64,000 bases of DNA from Tomocerus qinae (taxonomy: Eukaryota; Arthropoda; Collembola; Entomobryomorpha; Tomoceridae), in the NCBI GenBank assembly GCA_020055645.1, contig CM034547.1, positions 6,324,001 through 6,388,000 on the forward strand. Direction: 5' to 3'. The translations under genes and the position numbers were made by a program. Shown here in pieces: positions 5,076 through 59,690 of this stretch. Below the pieces are notes generated by a model. The model had not been told where the DNA came from, did not search any database, and saw nothing but the letters and a program-made list of their open reading frames with translations. The stretch's first letter is position 1, and the number at the start of each line of letters is the position of its first letter.

Positions 5076-8000
5076 ATGCCGATATCCTTCGAAAATGAAA
5101 ATCCAAGCAGGCTTCAAGAGAAAAGAAATTCACCCTATGATAATGATTCTTATCCAGATTTCAAAAATTTCATGGAAAGCGATGATGACGAAAAGCCGGA
5201 AATCCAAACCAAACAGAAAAATAAAACTAAGAATAAGAATGAAAGACTGAGAGCAAAGTCCGTAATAGGTACCAATCCTCACGATAATGACGATGTTTAA
5301 TTTAAAAGTTCCTGGTTTATTAATTTGTCCAATATTTAAGGGAAAGCATGGCATAGGACAAGAATATCACAAGGACATTTCCTAGCTAACACTTTTTCCA
5401 ATGAAGACGATGATGAAGAGCAAACGGGTTCTTCGACGTTGGAGTCAGATGATGTACAACCCAAAGAAAGAACTTCTGCTCAATATAGTCGATCGACATC
5501 TCCCACCAACAATAACAAAACTGTCAAATTATTCCCACTTGAAGCTATTGACTCTTCTGGGAATGTCCATTTAAAAAATGAAAATCCACCCCCACCAGTA
5601 GAAACCCCGATATCGTCTCCCAATGATGAGTCTATTACATTTCAATTCCAACCTTCAAATGAAAAAGATTCTGGACAGCAGCAAACAGCAGGGGGAGTAC
5701 TTGCAGCTGAATCCCATGACTCTTGGGTAACGGTCCCTTTCGATAATGATAAGCTGGAACTGGAAGAGAGAAATGCCATTGTTTTTAAACCACTCATCGT
5801 GCCGCAGCAAGAAAAATCACCTCGATCAAAAAATGTGCTAAATTTAGGAAACCCTACAGAAGAGTGGCTTTCGAATATCGAAAAACTATTCATTCATTTT
5901 TTCATAGTTATGTTTGACACTGAATCCGATTCGAGTAAAGTAATGTTGGAAATGTTTCCTTTGGAAAACTCGAAGAGGATTGAAGGAACTTTTCGAATCT
6001 TGTACAAAATGGATTCAGGTACAAAATGACATTATAATATAGCTTTGGAACATTGCCCTTCGCATATATGAACAGCTGATTCTATTTTTTTCGATTTTTA
6101 CAAACAGATTTGTACAAGGATCTGGAGCATGTTGTCTACCTAGCTCAAAACTGGATAGTGTCCCGAGCAATTAAAGGTCCTGGTCAGCAGAAAGCATTAA
6201 AGATTATAAATGATTATAAATTTGGTGTAAATGCTGAAGACAACGGACTCCTTTCAACGGAGATGCGACTGAATAATCTTAAAACCTTCATACAATCATT
6301 GGAAACTATAGGTATAAGAATAAAATATTACCTCCAACTCATGTGAATGGTATATCAGAAGTTCATAAAAGATTATTATGTTGATTTTAGGCGATCTCCC
6401 CAAAAGACAGATTAGTGAACACAATCGTTTTAAGAGAGATACTTACGGAGCGGAAGAAAATGAGCCAGTGGTAATTAATCGACCAAAATCACCTCGTGTG
6501 AAACCCGGTTCTCATTATGCCCGAGTTGTGGCAAATATTTTATGTGACCGCCCATGTGGTCGTCCGGTAACCCCTCCTGATGTTTATGCTGATAAATTTG
6601 TCAAGAAATTCTTAAAGTCTCAGTTTATTACCGAAAAGGAACTGCAAGAATACACTGAGTAAAGATGTATTAAATATATTTTGATACGCATACAGAACAA
6701 ATGCAATATTGTTTAGTAATTGCAGCGGTATATTTAAATTAAATGAAAATGTATTTTGCAGTAATATATACGGAAAAAAGTACAGGAAAACAGACATTTT
6801 CCATCAAATCAATCCTAATTTGTATCGAAAAAAACTCAACCCTTCACATATCGACCCACTTAATCGAAATTGTATGCTACCAATATATTCATCAGGTTAC
6901 TTGAAGAAAGTAAAGGATGGTACTTGCTGCCCCAGAAGACCGAAAAGAAAATCGAGCGCTACAGATCATGCCGATGGATTTACATCTCCTAGAGGTCACT
7001 ACCACAGGTACAAAGTGCTATCAGATTCGTCAGAAGAATGGGAGCACGATTTTAATACAGGAAGGAGGACGAAGAGAAAAGCTGGTTACACTCGTGGCCC
7101 CTATGGAGGTTATGTTGTCGGAGTGAAAAATTACTACGAGCAAAAAGTCAAAACAAAAACGCATGGAGAAGCTGAGGGTGATCGTTGGGATCGGCGCAAC
7201 TCCGATAGAAAAGGTATTGAAAGTGGAAGGCCCCGTCATAGATACGACAGTGAACCTGACCCCGAGTTTTATTCGGATAATCGTCGAAAAGGTGGGAAAA
7301 GAGACAAATATTCCTCACGGAAGCCACGCAGGGTTGGTAGCGAGACCTCGGGGAAATGGGAAAAAAATCCTCAGGGCAGACGACCAAAGAAATTGCCCTC
7401 CAAGGGGAAAAAATATACAAGACTACGCCATATTGAAAGTGATCCAGACTCGGAGCTTTTTGAACATGATGCAAAGGGTAGAAGAACTGTACGGAAACCA
7501 GGCCCATTGGGTGATTACTATCAGTTCTCTTCACAACCCCTCCGTAATATTGATAGCGACCCGAATTCGGAAGGATGGGAACATGATCGACATGGTAGAC
7601 GAATTGCTAGAAAAACCAGGTCAAGAAGAACCAAACGACGGCAACGAAATATTGAGAGTGACTCCAATTCGGATAACTGGGAACACAACAAAACTGGCAA
7701 GAGAACAAAGAGAAAACCTGATAAAACGGGTAAGCTCCGCAATATTGACAGTGACCCTAACTCTGTGGGCTGGGAACACGACAAAACTGGCAAGAGAACA
7801 AAGAGAAAACCTGATAATGCGGTTAAGCTCCGCAATATTGACAGTGACCCCAACTCAGAGGGCTGGGAACACGACAAATCAGGAAAAAGGCTTAAAAGAA
7901 AACCCAAGGAGAAAATTGACACATATTCACATAGGAAGCTCCGTAATATTGACAGTGATTCCGATTCTGATGCATGGGAACATAATAAAGATGGCAAACG

Positions 8001-20547: not shown

Positions 20548-23500
20548 CTAATCATACCTTTGATTACCCTCTTGGATATCAATATCAATCACAGCATCTC
20601 CATGCTCTTGAACATGATGGTGTTGGCCTTGATTTCTGTAGGCATTTGATGAAGTACGTTGGCTTCCTGCAGTTTCGTCAGTGTTACTTAACTGAAGAGA
20701 GTATGACTGTTGTCTATTATTATTTTGTGAATTGAAACGCTTAGAAGATTTTCCAGGCTTTACGTTAGTTATCGTATGTTTAAAAGACACCGATGCTAAA
20801 GGCAATGGTTTCTCTGTAATTATTTCTTGGAATTTTTCTTCCATGCTAATCCTATTGTCGTAATCATCTTGATGACTGTAATTATTATTTTGACTATTTT
20901 GATGATGATCAGAAGATTGACTGGCAAAAGCATTCGACTTTGTCTTTTCTGTGGAAGTATTTTCCGAATACGGTTTTAAAGAATCTTCTCGGATATCGGC
21001 AAATTGTGTTTCTTTTGAATCTTGCATAGATTTCTCCTTGTGCTTTTTACCCTTCCTAGTCTTTTTCACATGATGGAATTTTTCTGTGAACTCAGCTGCA
21101 TTTTCGACATTTTCTCCAGACTCGCTTTCGTCATTTCGGTGGTCGATTCCGTGGGATTTCGTTTTATGTTGATTCTTTTTCTTACCATTTCCTCTTATTT
21201 CTTCATTTTGGATGGTAAACTTTTCAGTAGGATTTTTCTCCAGTTCAACCCGCTGTAATGATATCTCTTCCGTCTCTTTAATTTGAGGTTGAGAATCTAT
21301 TTTTGCAGTGCTTTCCCCATGATCATCATGAGTACGTTCTAAATTCTGTAATCGAGACTCTATCTCTAATTCTCTATAATGCTGTTGGTCAATCTTCTCA
21401 ACGATATCTTCAATTCTTTTAATTCTTTCCTTATCCTCTTGAGAAGTTTCTGACAGTTTCCGAATCACCTCAAGCATCTCATCTTTATGTTTCTTATGCT
21501 CATCATGAAATTCTTCAGCGTTAACTTCTGTAACTTCATTCTCAGCTATCTCTTCATGCTTTAACTTTACCGATTCCTTTGAGACATAATTTTCATTTTC
21601 TGTATCATCTCCAACTTCACGAATCTCATCCTCATCTTTATGTGTCTTATGTTCATCATGAAATACTTCAATGTTAACTTCTATATCTTTATTCTGTGCT
21701 TCTTGCTTCAAGTTGACTGACTCCTCTGTCATAGAATTTTCCTTTACTGCATTATCTCTGACTGCATCGTCATCATCTTCATCACATGAATGCAGTAAGA
21801 GGTTAAAAATTAATATAAAAACCAAACAACAAATATTTCATATAAATAATTTTGTTATTTACATGACAAGTCAGAGCCAGAATCAGAAGTCTTTGAGGAA
21901 TAGTACGTATCAGAATCAGAATCCTTATGGGTTTTTGAGTCCTTGCTTTTCCTACTTCCATGAAGACCCTCTTGAATTTCTGTCACTGTTTTATCAATTT
22001 TCTTTAGCATAGTCATTTTATCTGGAGAAATGGGAAAAATAAATGCCAATTTAGTAAACGACACAGTACAGATATTAAATTACACCCCCACATTACGGTA
22101 TGAACCTCGTAATGTTACGTGGAAATCAGCTTCTTGATTTCTTATGTAAATTGTTTCGATTTTTATTCTGCAGTTACTTTATATTTTTGCGTATCGGGAG
22201 GTGGTCTAACCGGGTGGAAATCTAACGGGGAGGAGATCTGCCGGGAGGAAGTCTAACGGGGAGGAGATTTGACCCGGGAGGAAACCTAACGGGGATGAGA
22301 TCTAAGGAATTCAAATCGATGGTTTTGGACCCCTACAGTATACTAGAGCCCTTAGAACTTAAGAAGCTTATTGTACCAACCAAAAGAAAGTTTCTCAAAG
22401 CACTTTCTCTTTTTCTATGATAATTCCATATAAAATTTTCACCAACTTTCACCATGCCACAATCTTTTGAAATTGAAAAATCTGGGTACTGGTACGATAG
22501 TAGAGGATTAAGGTGGTGAAAGGTTTGAAAGTTAAAAGTACTAGCCAAACACCTTACCTTGTGGTAACCTCATAAAGTAAATAGTTCGGCATTCCTGAAT
22601 TTTATTTGTTTTAGTTGTTATTTATCAAAATCCAATAGTACTGGGTAGTGGATAAGTCATTATTAAGTAGCGGAGCTGCTTTATAGGAATGCCTGATCTG
22701 TCTGTCTGTCTGTCTGTCTGTCTGTTAGCACGATAACTCAAGAACGGTTTGAGATAATCAGTTCAAACTTTCTGAACATAATCTAGGGATAAAAACTGAG
22801 GTCGAGTTTGAATATAGTTAACATCGGGCACACCCCCTGCCTGTGGGCGTGGTTCAAAAACTAAAAATTGGTGTAACTTTCGCTATCGACATTGTAGAAC
22901 GTCATGAAATAACTCGTTCGAAAGGTTAATCGTTAAGTTTGAACATGGTTAACATCGGACACACCCCCTGCCTGTGGGCGTGGTTCAAAAACTAAAAATT
23001 GGTGTAACTTTTGCTACCGACATTGTAGAACGTCATGAAATAGCTCGTTCGAAAGGTTATTCGTCAAGTTTGAACATGGTTAACATCGAACACACCCCCG
23101 GCCTGTGGGCGTGGTTCAAAAACTAAAAATTGGTGTAACTTTTGCTATCGACATTTTAGAACGTCATGAAATAGCTCGTTCGAAAGGTTATTCGTAAAGT
23201 TTGAACATGGTTAACATCGAACACACCCCCGGCCTGTGGGCGTGGTTCAAAAACTAAAAATTGGTAACTTTTGCTGTCGACATTGTAAAACGTCATGAAA
23301 TAGCTCGTTCGAAAGGTCATTCGTTATGTCAGATCAATGTCAAGTCATGTGGGTCAAAACAAGGTAGGTTGATATAGTAACCGCTGTTACAAGGTATGGA
23401 AATAATTCGGATATAAAACCACTCAAAACCACTTATGGGGTTTTGTCCATTGCCAAAGGAGTATCCAAGACTACGGATTTTGGGTCAGCTGCCGTCCCCC

Positions 23501-29631: not shown

Positions 29632-30548
29632 ATGAACGTTTCCTTTGTTCTCCTGGTGGGGTTTCTGACGATATTTGACTTTGCTACATCAACTGTCTTT
29701 CTAGGTAAGATACTATTTTGGTACATTCTTGAAACTATGAATAAAATATAGTCAAATATAAAATAAAGAATTTTTGAATTCATGTCCATTCAATATGGCA
29801 ATAGGAAGTCGTCAAAGGAAGTGGACTTGTCCTAGTTACTTCATATTGTAAAACTTCATATTGTAAATTTTGGTCAAAAACTTTTCTTCTAGTATTCGCA
29901 TAGTTAGATCTTATACCTCAAATATTTTGGGACATTTATAAAATGTTACAGATGTTATCAAGAGTTCTATGACCAACCCAGATGTTCCTCCGACGCATCA
30001 CGACATTAGCCTTGAGTCAGAGTCTGCATCTAAAAAGTTGAAGCGTGGTCTTGGATTGAGAATCAATTTGGAGGCTGAAAGAATGGATGAAAGAGGATTT
30101 GGATTCGATCACAATCGTCGAGAATATGTCGGCTTGGATGAAAGAGGAATCGGATTCGACCACAATCGTCGGGAATATGTCGGCCTGGATGAAAGAGGAT
30201 TCGGATTCGAACACAATCGTCGGGAATACAGCGGATACCGTGGCGGTTTCGGTGAGTTCGGTTACAACGGAGACTATTACAGAGGCCTTCGTCAACGTCA
30301 TCACAAACATGGAGGCTACTATAATGACGGTAATAATTCTTTCTGTATGCAATTTTACACATTTTATTTTATTCCTATAACTTTTACTGAAATTACATAA
30401 ACAGGTAACAGAGATAATATATTATACCTCGATCTTACTTATGCCGCCGTGATGTGTACGCAAAGTACGCTTGATAAAATAATAATTTGTATTTATTTGC
30501 ATTACAGATTACAATGGAGGATTTAGCAGGTACATACCCATATTCTAA
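29632..30548 (+). CDS. Candidate multicopy secreted peptide precursor (RR-bounded repeats)
   Basis: Three exons (29632-29704, 29952-30329, 30508-30548) give 163 aa. I recognise no family. A signal peptide is clear: MNVSFVLLVGFLTIFDFATS. A spacer then ends in a basic site (KKLKR). Next come three tandem 17-residue repeats of the type DERGFGFDHNRREYVGL, followed by a Gly/Tyr/Arg/His-rich tail (GGFGEFGYNGDYYRGL, RQRHHKHGG) and a short last exon ending YIPIF. Cleavage at the RR pairs would release two near-identical 15-residue peptides, EYVGLDERG[I/F]GF[D/E]HN. No C-terminal Gly-basic amidation signal is present. It could be a neuropeptide-like precursor, an antimicrobial peptide or a structural protein. 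Exon 1 (73 nt, phase 1) matches that of the next gene. All three intron phases agree. Confidence 0.7.
30086..30238 (+). repeat. Three 51-bp coding repeats
   Basis: Units begin at 30086, 30137 and 30188, each encoding a 17-residue repeat of the peptide-precursor gene. The third diverges at its end (EYSGY). The near-identity at DNA level points to recent unit duplication. Confidence 0.9.
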
Positions 30549-44489: not shown

Positions 44490-44670
44490 TAACGTTGTCC
44501 GACCTTATCCAAAGTTATCCGACCTTATCAGAAAATATCCGACCTTGTCCGAAGTTATCTGAAGTTATCCGACCTTATCCGAAGTTATCCGACCTTATCC
44601 AAAATTATCCGATCTTATCCGAAGTTATCCGAAGTTATGCGATCTTATCCCACGTTATCTGATCTTATCC
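44490..44670. repeat. 10-bp minisatellite TTATCCGANN
   Basis: About 18 units of TTATCCGAAG, TTATCCGACC and variants. A related array sits at 58094-58280. The 3' end of a Helitron-like element lies about 180 bases to the right. Confidence 0.9.
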
Positions 44671-51210: not shown

Positions 51211-54200
51211 ATGTTTGTGAATTACTTTTGCAAGAGTCTCAAAGGCTCTTTGACTTCACTCCTTGCAGTTGGCATTTACATAATTTTGACTATTAGCAGT
51301 AGATCTCAATTAGTTTCTGCGCAAGGGATTTTATTTCCTCAAGACTCAGAGTTTCGGGAACGCCGGTGTCTGGATGGAATCTGGAATTTCCGTATTGCCC
51401 CAAGAGACAAACCCGACATCGGATTTGTCCAACAATGGTACTCCCACCCACTTTCTGAGGTAATCAAATTTTTAATTATCTTTTACTATCTAAACACAAC
51501 AGAAAGTTTTGTAATCCTTGAGGGCAATGAAATACTTTAAGGGGATAAAATTTAGGAGGGATATATTATACTATCATTCCAGAATAAATATTTGCACATA
51601 AATCATTGTAGAAAACGTTTAGAACTGAAATTGTAAAGCATTTTTAATCTTCACCTCTGTTGGTTGGGATTGAAGAGATTTTTTTGTTCCTCATGCATTA
51701 AAGCCATTACAAACTCTAATTAAAAATAATTTCGATTGCACATAACAAGTTAATGTATTTGAAGAGCGTGAATTTTAATTTAGAAATTGCAAATTGTCGT
51801 TCACTGCCAGAAATGAGAAGAGACGGCGAAGATACTCAATTAATACATATGCCAAAGTTTAAAAAGCCTGATATAATAAGACATTGAAAGGTTCTGGTGA
51901 ACTCAATGATGTGATCTCAATTAATAATATGCAATTTTAGAGAGAGAGTAGAGCAGGTGATGTCAATGTCACGGCAATTCCATTTTCTCGAGCTTAAAAG
52001 TTATCCTCCAAAAGTACAGCGCTACCGAATTTATATCGGATTGAAAGTTGATGAAGTAGCGCCGGTTTCCTTACTGTACAATCGTAGACTTACAATTAGT
52101 TATCAAAGAGCTTTGCACAACTGTTGAATTCTCAAACGTCCTTGCTGCATATTCTATGTTCACATAGCGTGGGTTTACATTAATATTTGTGTGATGCCCT
52201 ACATCATCATTTCGCATCCCACATGCCACATGCAAGCATATTGTAGGCTATAGTCAATTAGTCAGTACAGAATTTAAAATAACGGTGAGTACAGTGTTTG
52301 CATAAGTCAACGGAAAGAATCAGTCAATTCATAAAAAAGGATTTTGATATCAAAGCACTTTGTTACAAATCTAATTCGGTCAGACAGACTTTATTTGCAT
52401 GTGTCTGTTTCATTATCTGATATGATGTGTATAAATAACATCGAATGTTTTTCTGCACACGAGCGCGAGAATCGTGGCTGATGATGTATAGCGTCTGGGG
52501 ATACTGCGTGACAAATTATTGCCCTCATCTTCCTATGTGACAATATGTTCTTCTTATACCTACGTTTTTATGGAGAATGCAAATCACTAGAAATACAACT
52601 AAAATAATCCTCAGATCAACAATTAAACTTAATATTACTATTCCGGAGTTACCAAACAGTATAAATTTTGTACCCACATAAATACAATGGATTTGCATTG
52701 ATAATAATTTAATTATTTTTTATTATTTATGCTTAATAATTTTGATTGTAAGCATCTTTGAATTTTTCAGACAGGAGAAATTGATTTGATGCCAGTTCCA
52801 AGCAGTTACAATGACATAACTCAGAATAAGACCATCAGGGATCACATTGGATGGGTTTGGTATGATCGAGAGTTTTGGATACCAAAAAGCTGGGCAACCA
52901 ATACTAGAATATTCATTCGCTTTGGTGGTGTCAACTATCACGCGATTGTCGTAAGGAAAATAATTGTTTTTGCAATTGCTAATTTATAAATTGATTTGAT
53001 CAAAAGAATTTTCTTTCAGTGGATAAATGGAGTGAAGGCGGTTGAACATAGCGGTGCCCATTTACCATTTGTAGCCGAACTGGACGCAGCTAATCTTGCA
53101 TTCAAAAGTCCTAACAGGATCACTGTTGCTGTAAATAATACATTAAGCCAGGAGACTGTTCCGCAAGGCACAATTGTTTATCAAACTGCCGAAAGGCAAG
53201 ACTAAGACTACTTTTTAAAAAAAATAGTTTTTAGCATAAGCAACGAAAATCATTTTGATATTTTATTCGCAGGTATCCTAAAGGATATTTTACTCAGAAC
53301 TACAATTTTGATTTTTTCAACTATGCTGGCATCCATCGTCCCGTGTATTTGTTCACTACACCCAAGAATTACATTGATGATATTGCAGTTACGACTGATG
53401 TCCTCACAGAAAGCGAGGGCCATATTAACGGTTAGAATTCCAGTATTCCGCTATAAATTAACTATTGTATTTTCTTATAATCTTTGCATGTATTTCAGGA
53501 GTTGTTTCGTTTTCTGTGAGCACTGTTCCCGATGGGGCAATGCCAATTGCTGTCAATAACTCAAATAAAAGCAGGAAAAGTGGAGGAACATCTACAAAAA
53601 ATACTTCCCCGCGAACACACATTATTGCACATTTGGAAGACCGGAATGGCCATTCTGTAGCCGTAGCTTCAGGAGCCAGAGGTCAATTAGTCATTACAGA
53701 TGCCAAACTTTGGTGGCCTTACACAATGGTTAAGAACGATAGCGAGGCTGGATATTTGTACACCTTAGTGGTGAGATTTTTAAAATTGAACTTTTCATCA
53801 TTGTTTTAGTGTTTTATTCCACAAATTAACTAATACATTGATTTTATTTTGTAAAGGTAACTCTCACAGATGAAAAAAGTAACGAGCTGGATATTTATCG
53901 ATTAAAAGTTGGCATCAGATCCGTTACATGGTCAACTACAACATTTCTGATTAACAATAAACCATTTTACTTTCGTGGCTTCGGCCGTCATGAAGATTTC
54001 AATGTAATTTAGTTATTTAAAACCGTTTAATTAATTCCATGATGTGTAAATCTCTATTATATAGCTTATGCTTGTATGAAAATGATTCTCTAGGTTCGAG
54101 GGAAAGGCATTGACAATGTAATGTTGGTAAAAGATCACAATTTAGTCAAATGGACAGGAGCAAATTCTTACCGCACATCCCACTACCCATATTCCGAAGA

Positions 54201-55792
54201 AATCATGGATCTTACTGATGAACTCGGGATTGTTATCATTGACGAATGCCCTGCCGTCTCTTTAGAGTAATATTTGGCTATTAACGTTACAATTAATGTA
54301 CGTTTTACTTAACAATAATGTTTATGTGGTTTTCAGTGGATTTGGCGACAGGTTACTGGCAAACCATAAGCAACAAATACGAGAAATGGTCAACAGAGAC
54401 AAAAATAGACCTAGTGTCGTTATGTGGTCAGTAGGAAATGAACCACAAAGTCAGAAACCAGCAGCAGAAAATTATTTCCGGTAATTAAATCACCAATTCA
54501 TTATCTAGGCTTATTTAAGACATCATTTTAACAAAAATTAATTTCCCTGCATGGCAGCTTACTAAAATCATTTCAATTTTTTAACTAAAGAAATGTTATT
54601 TTACGTGTTCCAATTTCAAACTAACTATAGAATAACTTGCAATTTACTGCCTTTTAATTACATTGCAAATGCTACTCCTTTTTATCAATTTCCATACGAA
54701 AATGTACTTTTTTGCGGCTTTTTGCTATAATGAAAATGTTGTAAAACAAAGCTTTTTGGAGCTGATTGAATGATCATGAGTTAATTTTTTCACTTAAATT
54801 TGAAATTGAATTGTGCAGACAAATTGTAGAAATGACAAAATCTTTGGACGATAAGCGACCAATTACCTTAGTTATAAATCAAGGATGGTACAACGACAAA
54901 GCAGTATGTTTGCATTTTTTATATTATCTTTTTTCTCTAAAATTAGTGATATTGTTGCCTTAAATCGAGAGCTTGACCCGACGCGACCAATAACTTTGGT
55001 TGTGGCACAAAACTTTGACAAGGATGTTACTGTAATACTTTTAAATTCATTTTATGAAAAATATTATATACCTGTCTATTGTCGCTTTGGGGTTAGTTCT
55101 TAGTAATCTTTTGTAATTTACAAATACATTTCGACTATGTAGGCCAAATTTGTGGACATCTTATCGATTAACCGATACTTCAGTTGGTATTCGGACACTG
55201 GGCACACAGAAGTCATTAAAAATTCCATGATCCTCGACGTTCAGAATTGGATAAAAACATTCAATAGGCCTTTAATGGTTGCAGAATATGGGGCAGACAC
55301 TGTTGCCGGTCTCCATATGGTATAACACGATTGACCTAATTCTCATTATTGTCCAATTTTAAAAGGGATTTATGAAATATATTTATCAAAAATTTTAGAG
55401 TCCAGAATTTGTTTTTACGGAAGAGTATCAACTGGAAATGATGAAGGAGCATTTCAAAGCTTTTGATTTCCTCAGGACAAATACCACTTTTATCGGAGAA
55501 ATGATTTGGAATTTTGCTGATTTCATGACAGCGCAAGGTAAATTATGATCAAATGGTTTACAGATTCAGAAAAGGTATTATTAAGACATTGTTTTATGGC
55601 ATTTTTCTAGGAATAACTCGCATCACAGGAAATCGTAAAGGAATTTTCACAAGAGACAGACAGCCTAAAAGCTCTGCTCATTATTTACGTGCTCGCTACC
55701 ACCTCCTGGCTTCTGAAAGCGACGGATATCCAGAACCTGAAGATTTGAGAGATATTTATCCGATTTTTACAAACAATCGTGGCAAATATTAA
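51211..55792 (+). CDS. GUSB: Secreted/lysosomal beta-glucuronidase (GH2)
   Basis: Exo-hydrolase removing terminal beta-D-glucuronic acid, normally in lysosomes. Exons 51211-51459, 52771-52950, 53020-53195, 53273-53430, 53499-53770, 53857-54003, 54094-54266, 54337-54480, 54819-54903 (or 54947-55031), 55143-55319, 55399-55537 and 55611-55792 give 693 aa. A signal anchor or peptide ([15 protein letters not shown]...VSAQ) precedes the GH2 sugar-binding domain ([31 protein letters not shown]). The barrel follows, with GFGRHEDF, the acid/base Glu in [24 protein letters not shown], the nucleophile Glu in [12 protein letters not shown], and [12 protein letters not shown] plus [15 protein letters not shown]. 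All GUSB landmarks are present. One intron (53196-53272) uses a GC donor. Two alternative exons of equal length exist (see separate entry). Confidence 0.94.
54947..55031 (+). CDS. GUSB: Alternative (mutually exclusive) beta-glucuronidase exon 9b
   Basis: This 85-nt exon is a homologue of the upstream exon 9a (54819-54903, also 85 nt). Both are entered in phase 2 and left in phase 0. Both complete an Arg codon, then encode 28 residues: [20 protein letters not shown]... in 9a and [20 protein letters not shown]... in 9b. Shared positions include the RPITLV core. Only 43 bases separate them, shorter than any other intron found in the window (minimum 61). Including both would shift the frame. The acceptor is TAAAATTAG; the donor is ACT|GTAATA. 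Confidence 0.8.
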
Positions 55793-57957: not shown

Positions 57958-59690
57958 TAAGTGCATATAAATATATGCAAATGTTATGATATGTATCCAT
58001 CTCTATATAATAAAGACTGTCTTGTCTTAGGTAAAGCAATTTTACCTGCCACTATATTTTAAATGTCTGTACGTATGGTAGGGTGTTCCCACAATCTTAT
58101 CCAATCTAATCCGATTTTATCCAATTTTATCCAATTTTATCCGATTTTATCCAATTTTATCCGATTTTATCCTATCTTATCCGATTTTATCCGATTTTAT
58201 TCAGTTTTATCCGATTTTATCCGGTTTTATGCAATTTTATCCGGTTTTATCAGATCTTATCCAATCTTGTCGATTTTATCCGTGCCTCAGCCAGATTTCT
58301 TCTGATTCTGACGTCGTCAGATTTCATCAGAATTTAACAGAATAATGCATTCAGCTTTCTAATCGCAATAAAAGGAAAAATTGAGGTATTCTACCGTGAG
58401 GCATATTTTAATTGCTAGTTTGTAAATAAATCAATAAAGGAATGATTAAAAATTCTCCGGCATCAGTCTTTCTCTCTATTACTATTAGTCTCTATTATCG
58501 GTAGTTTACTATTAGAATAGGCAGAAATAGTTGAAAACAAAAGGTTTTCGATGTTAAAAGTTCCATTCTCAATGAAATTCATTGTTAGAAATGTAAGACA
58601 ATTTTTCCATACTATCGTTCCTATCCTATTCTGATTTTATCTATCATTATCATTTAATTTTTTGGATTGTGGCTAAAATGTTTTCTCTATCCCAATCCCA
58701 GAGTATTGGCTAATGGCTAACACATATTTAAATTACAACTTGAACAAGAGAATGAATTTTCATTTTAGGCCAATTTTGCAGGTCGAAAAGAGCATCTTTG
58801 CCCCAGTAGACTTGACGTGGGAGCTTATTGTAAGTACTAATTTAACTATGAGTGATATCTGAAAGATGACCCTGAAATTACAGTGCAAAATATTTTTCCT
58901 TACTTCAGTGCAAAATTAGATATCGAACAAACTTTGTAGCCATTAAAACATCGATACTGTTTGTTTATTAGTAGTAGCAGTGCAATTGTGTTGGTAGGTA
59001 GGTTAACTTCATTTTATTCACATCACCCTTTCTAATTAGTTAATTATCAGTTTGCTATAATTGTATTACAGAAGCATAACAAATGTTCCTTATTTAATGT
59101 ATAGACTTACAAGCGATAAAAAGTCGTGGTTGTTAAATTACCATGCTATATAATATTCCTTATGCTAATGGCATTGACTCTGGCATTGGACTGATTGATT
59201 GCACAATGTCTGTGTAAAATATTATCGCAACTCAACTCTTTATAACTTTTACAATTCTGTTTTAATGTATTCAAACCAGTATAGTGTCATTTTCAGTGCA
59301 TGTGGAGTTATGTTTATATTATTATTATTATGAAGACAATGAATACTAAAATGAACTTCGATAAGACTGAATTTATGCGATATTGATTACTTGTGTGTGG
59401 AACATAATATTACCACATGCACAAAATCAACTGCTAATGGATTGTATATGAATATGCAACTTTAGAAGTGCCATTGGTATATATTAAATTCTTCCACGAG
59501 TATAATATATGGATAGTGCACGCATTTGAATATCGTGTGTATTATAATGGAAATGCACGAAAAAATGAATATAAAGCTTGCATCGCTCCATTGCTCTTCC
59601 TTTTTCGTTCTGACTCGCGTGTGATTAAGAGCAGATCAAAAGCTAGTGTTGAGTGTAAACATTCGGCACTAATAAAATTTTGAAGGTACA
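57958..59690. other. Intergenic region
   Basis: Contains the second TTATCCGA-type minisatellite (58094-58280), then about 1.4 kb of unremarkable AT-rich DNA before the C45 gene. Confidence 0.55.
58094..58280. repeat. 10-bp minisatellite TTATCC[GA]ATT
   Basis: About 18 units of TTATCCGATT / TTATCCAATT, period 10. It is closely related to the array at 44490-44670. It begins about 135 bases beyond the 3' end of the second Helitron-like copy. Confidence 0.9.

Follow-up and report, generated by a model that had tools for sequence, protein, structure and literature searches.

Two adjacent copies of exon 9 in a β-glucuronidase gene of the collembolan Tomocerus qinae as predicted mutually exclusive exons

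The β-glucuronidase gene present in a 64,000-nucleotide stretch of Tomocerus qinae DNA (contig CM034547.1, positions 6,324,001 to 6,388,000; the window hereafter, with positions counted from its first letter) contains two adjacent, homologous copies of its ninth exon, which are named here exon 9a and exon 9b. Analysis of the sequence suggests that it is quite likely that the two are mutually exclusive exons which arose by tandem duplication, the exclusion being steric with a frameshift as its backup. The gene very probably makes two forms of β-glucuronidase. Mutually exclusive exons produced by tandem duplication and kept apart by steric exclusion are a well known kind, and the case for the present pair is built on the DNA of one species.

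The spliced model reveals a complete gene for a GH2 β-glucuronidase, a putative hydrolase of glucuronides, at positions 51211-55792 of the forward strand. It has 13 exons, 12 of which are used in each mRNA. Exons 1 to 4 are located at 51211-51459, 52771-52950, 53020-53195 and 53273-53430, and exons 5 to 7 at 53499-53770, 53857-54003 and 54094-54266. Exon 8 (54337-54480) carries the acid/base motif VGNEP and ends at the donor CCG/gtaatt. Downstream of the pair, exon 10 (55143-55319) provides the common acceptor and encodes INRYFSW together with the nucleophile motif AEYGAD, and it is followed by exons 11 and 12 at 55399-55537 and 55611-55792. Apart from one GC-AG intron (53196-53272, AAG/gcaaga), all introns are GT-AG. 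The predicted protein is 693 amino acids in length with either 9a or 9b, and realignment of the model protein to the window returned identical introns, which tests consistency only.

The best solved relative of both forms is human GUSB (1bhg), with 623 bits for the form containing 9a and 618.6 bits for the form containing 9b. Human GUSB aligns over residues 38-259 and 300-669, and there is no gap in exon 9 with either copy. The Pfam GH2 domains PF02837, PF00703 and PF02836 score above cut-off, and the GH2_C model of the TIM barrel gives 269.5 bits with 9a against 269.3 bits with 9b. VGNEP aligns to VANEP and AEYGAD to SEYGAE of the human enzyme, and both catalytic glutamates, which in human GUSB numbering we take to be 451 and 540, are present. 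Position 540 of human GUSB is also named in the title of a cited reference. Within 53499-53770, 40 residues with many Asn, Ser, Lys and Thr (protein positions 260-299) stay unaligned against 11 human residues and are likely to be an insertion in the second domain. Elsewhere in the window, a chitin-binding peritrophin domain, which like the clustered myosin relay exons described below suggests an arthropod source, is encoded according to Pfam, and arrays of similar 10-base units (GTTATCCGAA and TTATCCGATT) are present at 44494-44670 and 58097-58282, about 13 kb apart.

Exon 9a (54819-54903) and exon 9b (54947-55031), both on the forward strand, are 85 nt each, are entered in phase 2 and left in phase 0, and have AG upstream and GT downstream as their borders. 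They are separated by a gap of 43 nt (54904-54946) which itself has GT...AG ends. An earlier reading of this DNA, made from the letters and their open reading frames (the sequence-only reading), had described two adjacent homologous exons of this length, phase and spacing, with a common core RPITLV and differences at most other positions, located between the acid/base glutamate and the NRYFSW strand. Coordinates, borders, phases and gap are all as it gave them, the location is right (VGNEP in exon 8, INRYFSW in exon 10) and can be sharpened to loop 5 of the TIM barrel, and of the 28 residues counted after the common split codon 12, including RPITLV, are identical while 16 differ. At the DNA level, 43 of the 85 bases are identical. 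The likeness of the two exons is not due to chance: the ungapped comparison of their peptides scores 56, a value which the 9b peptide, shuffled 200,000 times, never attains (maximum 39), and in a search of 127,834 six-frame positions of the window the best match of each exon after itself is the other exon, the next best scoring 30 and 24. Being adjacent, homologous, equal in length and phase, stop-free and splice-bordered, 9a and 9b show the features described for tandem-duplicated mutually exclusive exons in PMC5740500.

Both strands of the window were scanned for equal-length, same-phase, splice-bordered pairs. Among the 5,463 pairs compared, 18 score at least 45, and one of these is 9a/9b. 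The remaining 17 fall in two places: 8 lie within an open frame at 7.4-7.8 kb that is rich in repeats, and 9 are at 22.8-23.1 kb; tandem arrays are called at 7648-7878 and 22805-23326, and 2 of the 8 pairs extend partly beyond the called array. The array at 22805-23326 consists of four copies of a 131-base unit with 94% matches and contains splice-bordered frames of equal length on the minus strand. The one at 7648-7878, like another at 30084-30228, lies within a long open frame; their repeat units of 93 and 51 bases are multiples of three, and the frames likely encode repeat proteins. As a positive control, the scan recovers the three copies of the relay exon in a muscle-type myosin gene of the same genome (contig C1, 104783900-104787000). 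It also gives 13 matches on the antisense strand of these relay exons, and therefore the scan is not strand-specific. At three loci of β-glucuronidase paralogs the scan found no pair, and a third copy of exon 9 was found neither in the window nor at these three loci by the scan or by a similarity search (best 4-6 matches per query).

In the alignment with CpGUS (4jkm), Tyr-Leu-Met at chain positions 449-451 falls on the triad N-Q-G of exon 9a, which is A-Q-N in exon 9b. These chain positions are taken to be residues 446-448 of PMC6219552, which in that study form loop 5 and line the aglycone site. As reported there, CpGUS given the three loop-5 residues of another enzyme loses activity on some glucuronides and gains activity on glycyrrhizin, a single change at position 448 lowers kcat for a bulky substrate, and loop 3 also has a role in the same bacterial enzymes (PMC6219552). 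By this analogy, exon 9 is likely to carry a specificity loop, with the catalytic residues common to both forms. Provided that the role of loop 5 carries over from the bacterial enzymes to this animal enzyme, the two forms may differ in substrate preference.

Both copies have the appearance of functional coding sequence. There is no stop in frame in either of them, the base differences between them at codon positions 1, 2 and 3 are 12, 10 and 19 (of 28 each), and 6 of the 12 identical residues are encoded by different codons. When an equal number of random base changes is introduced, 1 of 20,000 runs starting from 9a and none of 20,000 starting from 9b attain the protein score observed, and a stop is gained in 15,986 and 14,276 of these runs, respectively. 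We infer from this that 9a and 9b have both long been maintained by selection on the protein.

With regard to the ancestral copy, the evidence points in two directions. Exon 9a is identical to human GUSB at 12 of 28 residues, which is the same number as to 9b, and retains the D-K-A end found in the paralogs on contig C2 described below. Exon 9b is identical to human GUSB at 10 of 28 residues, retains LDPTRP and scores better than 9a against 15 of the 20 compared solved chains, 9a scoring better against 5 (the 20 chains were taken from 60 listed, and several are near-duplicates). The human fit and D-K-A favour 9a and LDPTRP and the 15 chains favour 9b, and from such sequence comparisons it cannot be told which copy is ancestral. 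The view of the sequence-only reading that 9b is family-like and 9a diverged is not borne out, as 9a is nearer to human GUSB by bit score, the Pfam scores are equal and D-K-A is kept in 9a, though 9b has LDPTRP and the better fit to most of the chains.

Splice-site scores treat the two copies differently. In a scoring model built on 35 used introns, the donor and the acceptor of 9a both rank 18 among 35 used sites, and those of 9b are weak, with ranks 7 and 6 of 35. From exon 8 to exon 10, four GT sites outscore the 9b donor (two of these are the donors of exon 8 and 9a), five AG sites outscore the 9b acceptor (one of these is the 9a acceptor), and an AG within exon 9a scores equal to the 9a acceptor. 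The higher-scoring other GT and AG sites between exons 8 and 10 are presumably unused. Because its donor is fifth among the GT sites and its acceptor sixth among the AG sites, 9b could not be picked from site scores alone. The scores suggest that 9a might be the default exon and 9b a regulated or rarer one; no splice regulator of the pair was identified in this sequence analysis.

The low rank of the 9b sites and the presence of better-scoring sites nearby would also agree with the idea that either 9a or, more probably, 9b is hardly used, being a relic or a poison exon, so that a single enzyme is made. The protein segment of 9b points the same way in two respects, as it is without the Asn common to 9a and human GUSB at position 1 of loop 5 and without the D-K-A end. 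However, the frame of 9b is intact, its differences from 9a are biased towards third positions, its Pfam score is equal to that of 9a and it fits 15 of the 20 chains better, and a poison exon would need no in-phase conservation of protein. We therefore consider this explanation rather unlikely, and mutually exclusive use of two living exons remains the preferred reading.

For such exclusive use, the reading frame provides one line of evidence. The model stops after residue 528 when both exons are included, again after residue 528 when neither is included, and after residue 547 when the 43-nt gap is retained. In all three forms the stop precedes the nucleophile, so that AEYGAD is lost, and lies upstream of the last exon junction, a position at which NMD is expected. 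Joint inclusion or joint skipping of 9a and 9b thus predicts no functional product.

The length of the gap provides another line of evidence. The smallest other intron of this gene is 68 nt, and the 35 distinct introns in five β-glucuronidase gene models (two of them partial and the other three complete or almost complete; both introns flanking 9a are included) range from 65 to 1,311 nt. In TCP-1 genes, 36 introns estimated from exon matches (56 of 57 match rows used) have a minimum of about 78 nt. None of these 71 introns (35 measured, 36 estimated) is therefore as short as the gap of 43 nt. Two 37-nt introns placed by the aligner in the paralogs on contig C2 were rejected as artefacts, since an upstream standard donor gives 103 nt and a sensible protein and the sequence that the short introns would keep is without a protein match; 103 nt was used for both in the intron-length set, the minimum of which would be 37 nt if they were real.

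The AG that most closely precedes the 9b acceptor is found at 54903-54904, straddling the 9a donor, and therefore the AG-free zone for the 9b branch point is the gap itself. Steric interference is described for donors and branch points less than about 50 nt apart (PMC5740500, PMC7969005), and a gap of 43 nt with the AG-free zone, where the branch point should lie, confined to it falls below this value. The sequence-only reading had proposed both that joining of 9a and 9b breaks the frame and that a steric block excludes it. The first is confirmed by the stop after residue 528, and the second stands as the best-supported reading, to which the stop on joining adds a backup based on frame. Some animals splice very short introns, and hence the 43-nt gap is strong but not absolute evidence.

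Other causes of exclusion were also considered. The pair shows no sign of U2/U12 incompatibility: its donors are GT, its acceptors are AG, and the donors, read by eye, are without the U12 motif. Arthropod Dscam is an example of exclusion by competing RNA pairings. Pairing between docking and selector sites is described as a mechanism in other genes in PMC6071210. It is improbable, however, that such pairings rather than a steric block are the main cause in the present gene, as folding of the 662-nt region between exons 8 and 10 is ordinary in the one species analysed (z 0.39; 13 of 20 shuffled sequences are at least as stable) and the 43-nt gap suffices to explain the exclusion. Still more improbable is that 9a and 9b are ordinary cassette exons which can be joined into a regulated non-productive mRNA, for although the join yields an early stop, and an early stop acting through NMD is a known way to lower expression, it would require an intron of 43 nt, which is below the length of every one of the 71 introns compared.

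In the steric model that we favour, an ancestral 85-nt exon would have been copied in tandem to give the pair 9a/9b. Exon 8 would be joined to either 9a or 9b and the chosen exon to exon 10, resulting in two full-length β-glucuronidases which would differ in the 16 residues mentioned above, including those of loop 5 bordering the aglycone pocket. Any branch point within the gap would lie less than 40 nt from the 9a donor, U1 and U2 snRNPs would not both fit there, and splicing from 9a to 9b would not take place. Mis-spliced mRNAs containing both exons, neither exon or the gap would stop before the nucleophile and would be removed by NMD. With its stronger sites, 9a would be the default, and for 9b to be used, either 9a would have to be repressed or 9b activated.

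The genome (334 Mb, 115 contigs; only the best candidates were scored) contains at least four further β-glucuronidase genes. Three of them are in tandem on contig C2 near 54.43-54.445 Mb (C2:54429000-54448999) and one is on contig C3 at 39.9 Mb. A DNA search of the species' own genome revealed no near-identical second locus; apart from the window, its only match was a distant paralog. All four paralogs have exon 9 in a single copy, 85 nt long, entered in phase 2 and left in phase 0, which indicates that the pair arose by copying of the whole ancestral exon. Placement by eye gives the loop-5 triads FTN, DSN (in two copies) and SQG for the paralogs, and thus NQG, AQN, FTN, DSN and SQG are all present in one genome.

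Copies 2 and 3 on C2 show no difference in the codons of exons 7-12 that were compared, and copy 1 differs mainly around exon 9 and the intron downstream of it. When copy 1 is compared with copy 2, 18 of the 87 bases of exon 9 differ and dS is 0.73, against 35 of 801 bases and a dS of 0.05-0.27 in exons 7, 8, 10, 11 and 12 (Fisher p 5e-7, with bases treated as independent). The intron after exon 9 (87 vs 472 nt in copies 1 and 2) gives no alignment and the end of the preceding intron aligns poorly. Most other 50-base blocks are at least 90% identical, two in introns 7 and 11 being about 70% identical. Positive selection on exon 9 between these copies was not supported, because dN/dS is about 0.18 and it is dS that is raised (29 codons, a rough estimate); the island around exon 9 therefore appears to be a block of older divergence and not of fast protein change.

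Exchange with another copy could explain this island, as could the retention of different exons of an ancestral pair by the two copies. Searches of the 472-nt intron with 9a, 9b or the exon of C2 copy 2 as query revealed no relic of a second exon 9, and therefore reciprocal loss of an ancestral pair is unproven; the DNA of the copy-1 exon 9 likewise had no match in this intron when copies 1 and 2 were compared. A possible, though somewhat doubtful, extension of these observations is that exon 9 with its loop 5 is a specificity cassette which has been diversified in two ways, as an exclusive pair in one gene and by divergence between tandem paralogs, through retention of different exons or exchange of the cassette.

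If the proposed model is true, one β-glucuronidase gene would give rise to two enzymes which differ in a loop that affects the choice of glucuronide in bacterial enzymes. Alternative splicing, rather than gene duplication, would then become testable as a source of enzyme specificity, with the paralogs of the same genome as a natural comparison, and the 43-nt gap would represent a very compact case of steric exclusion. Among the titles and abstract beginnings listed from the open-licence PMC literature, none reports mutually exclusive exons in a β-glucuronidase or another glycoside hydrolase; PMC8956072, PMC9146820 and PMC3800588 are unrelated to this subject. For human Asn484, the same literature gave one paper, which is unrelated.

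Several known systems resemble the pair in part. The relay exons of muscle myosin heavy chain are mutually exclusive in arthropods (PMC2257972), and they are, like 9a and 9b by prediction, tandem homologous exons of which one is used per mRNA. However, the relay copies in the present genome are three in number and belong to a motor protein, and because they lie about 0.7 and 1.0 kb apart, they are not excluded by a too-short gap. In insect serpin-1, one gene likewise gives isoforms by means of alternative exons, and both splicing and gene duplication add diversity (PMC10513286), as the paralogs may do here. Serpin-1, however, is an inhibitor and not an enzyme, and the number of its exons is expanded in some species. 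Its alternative exons are terminal and swap the reactive-centre loop, a specificity loop on one scaffold.

Human KHK is a different enzyme from β-glucuronidase and has a different fold. It is similar to the present case in being an enzyme with a swapped duplicated exon, which in KHK lies beside the ATP site, the catalytic Arg being conserved in both forms (PMC9741552). Exons 4a and 4b of vertebrate 2-oxoglutarate dehydrogenase (OGDH) are, like 9a and 9b, a mutually exclusive pair in a metabolic enzyme with short spacing between donor and branch point; in human, the branch points are located 25-41 nt from the upstream donor, below the threshold of ~50 nt (PMC7969005). However, the OGDH pair switches calcium sensitivity and not the substrate pocket, and its branch points have been mapped by experiment whereas that of 9b is predicted to lie in the gap.
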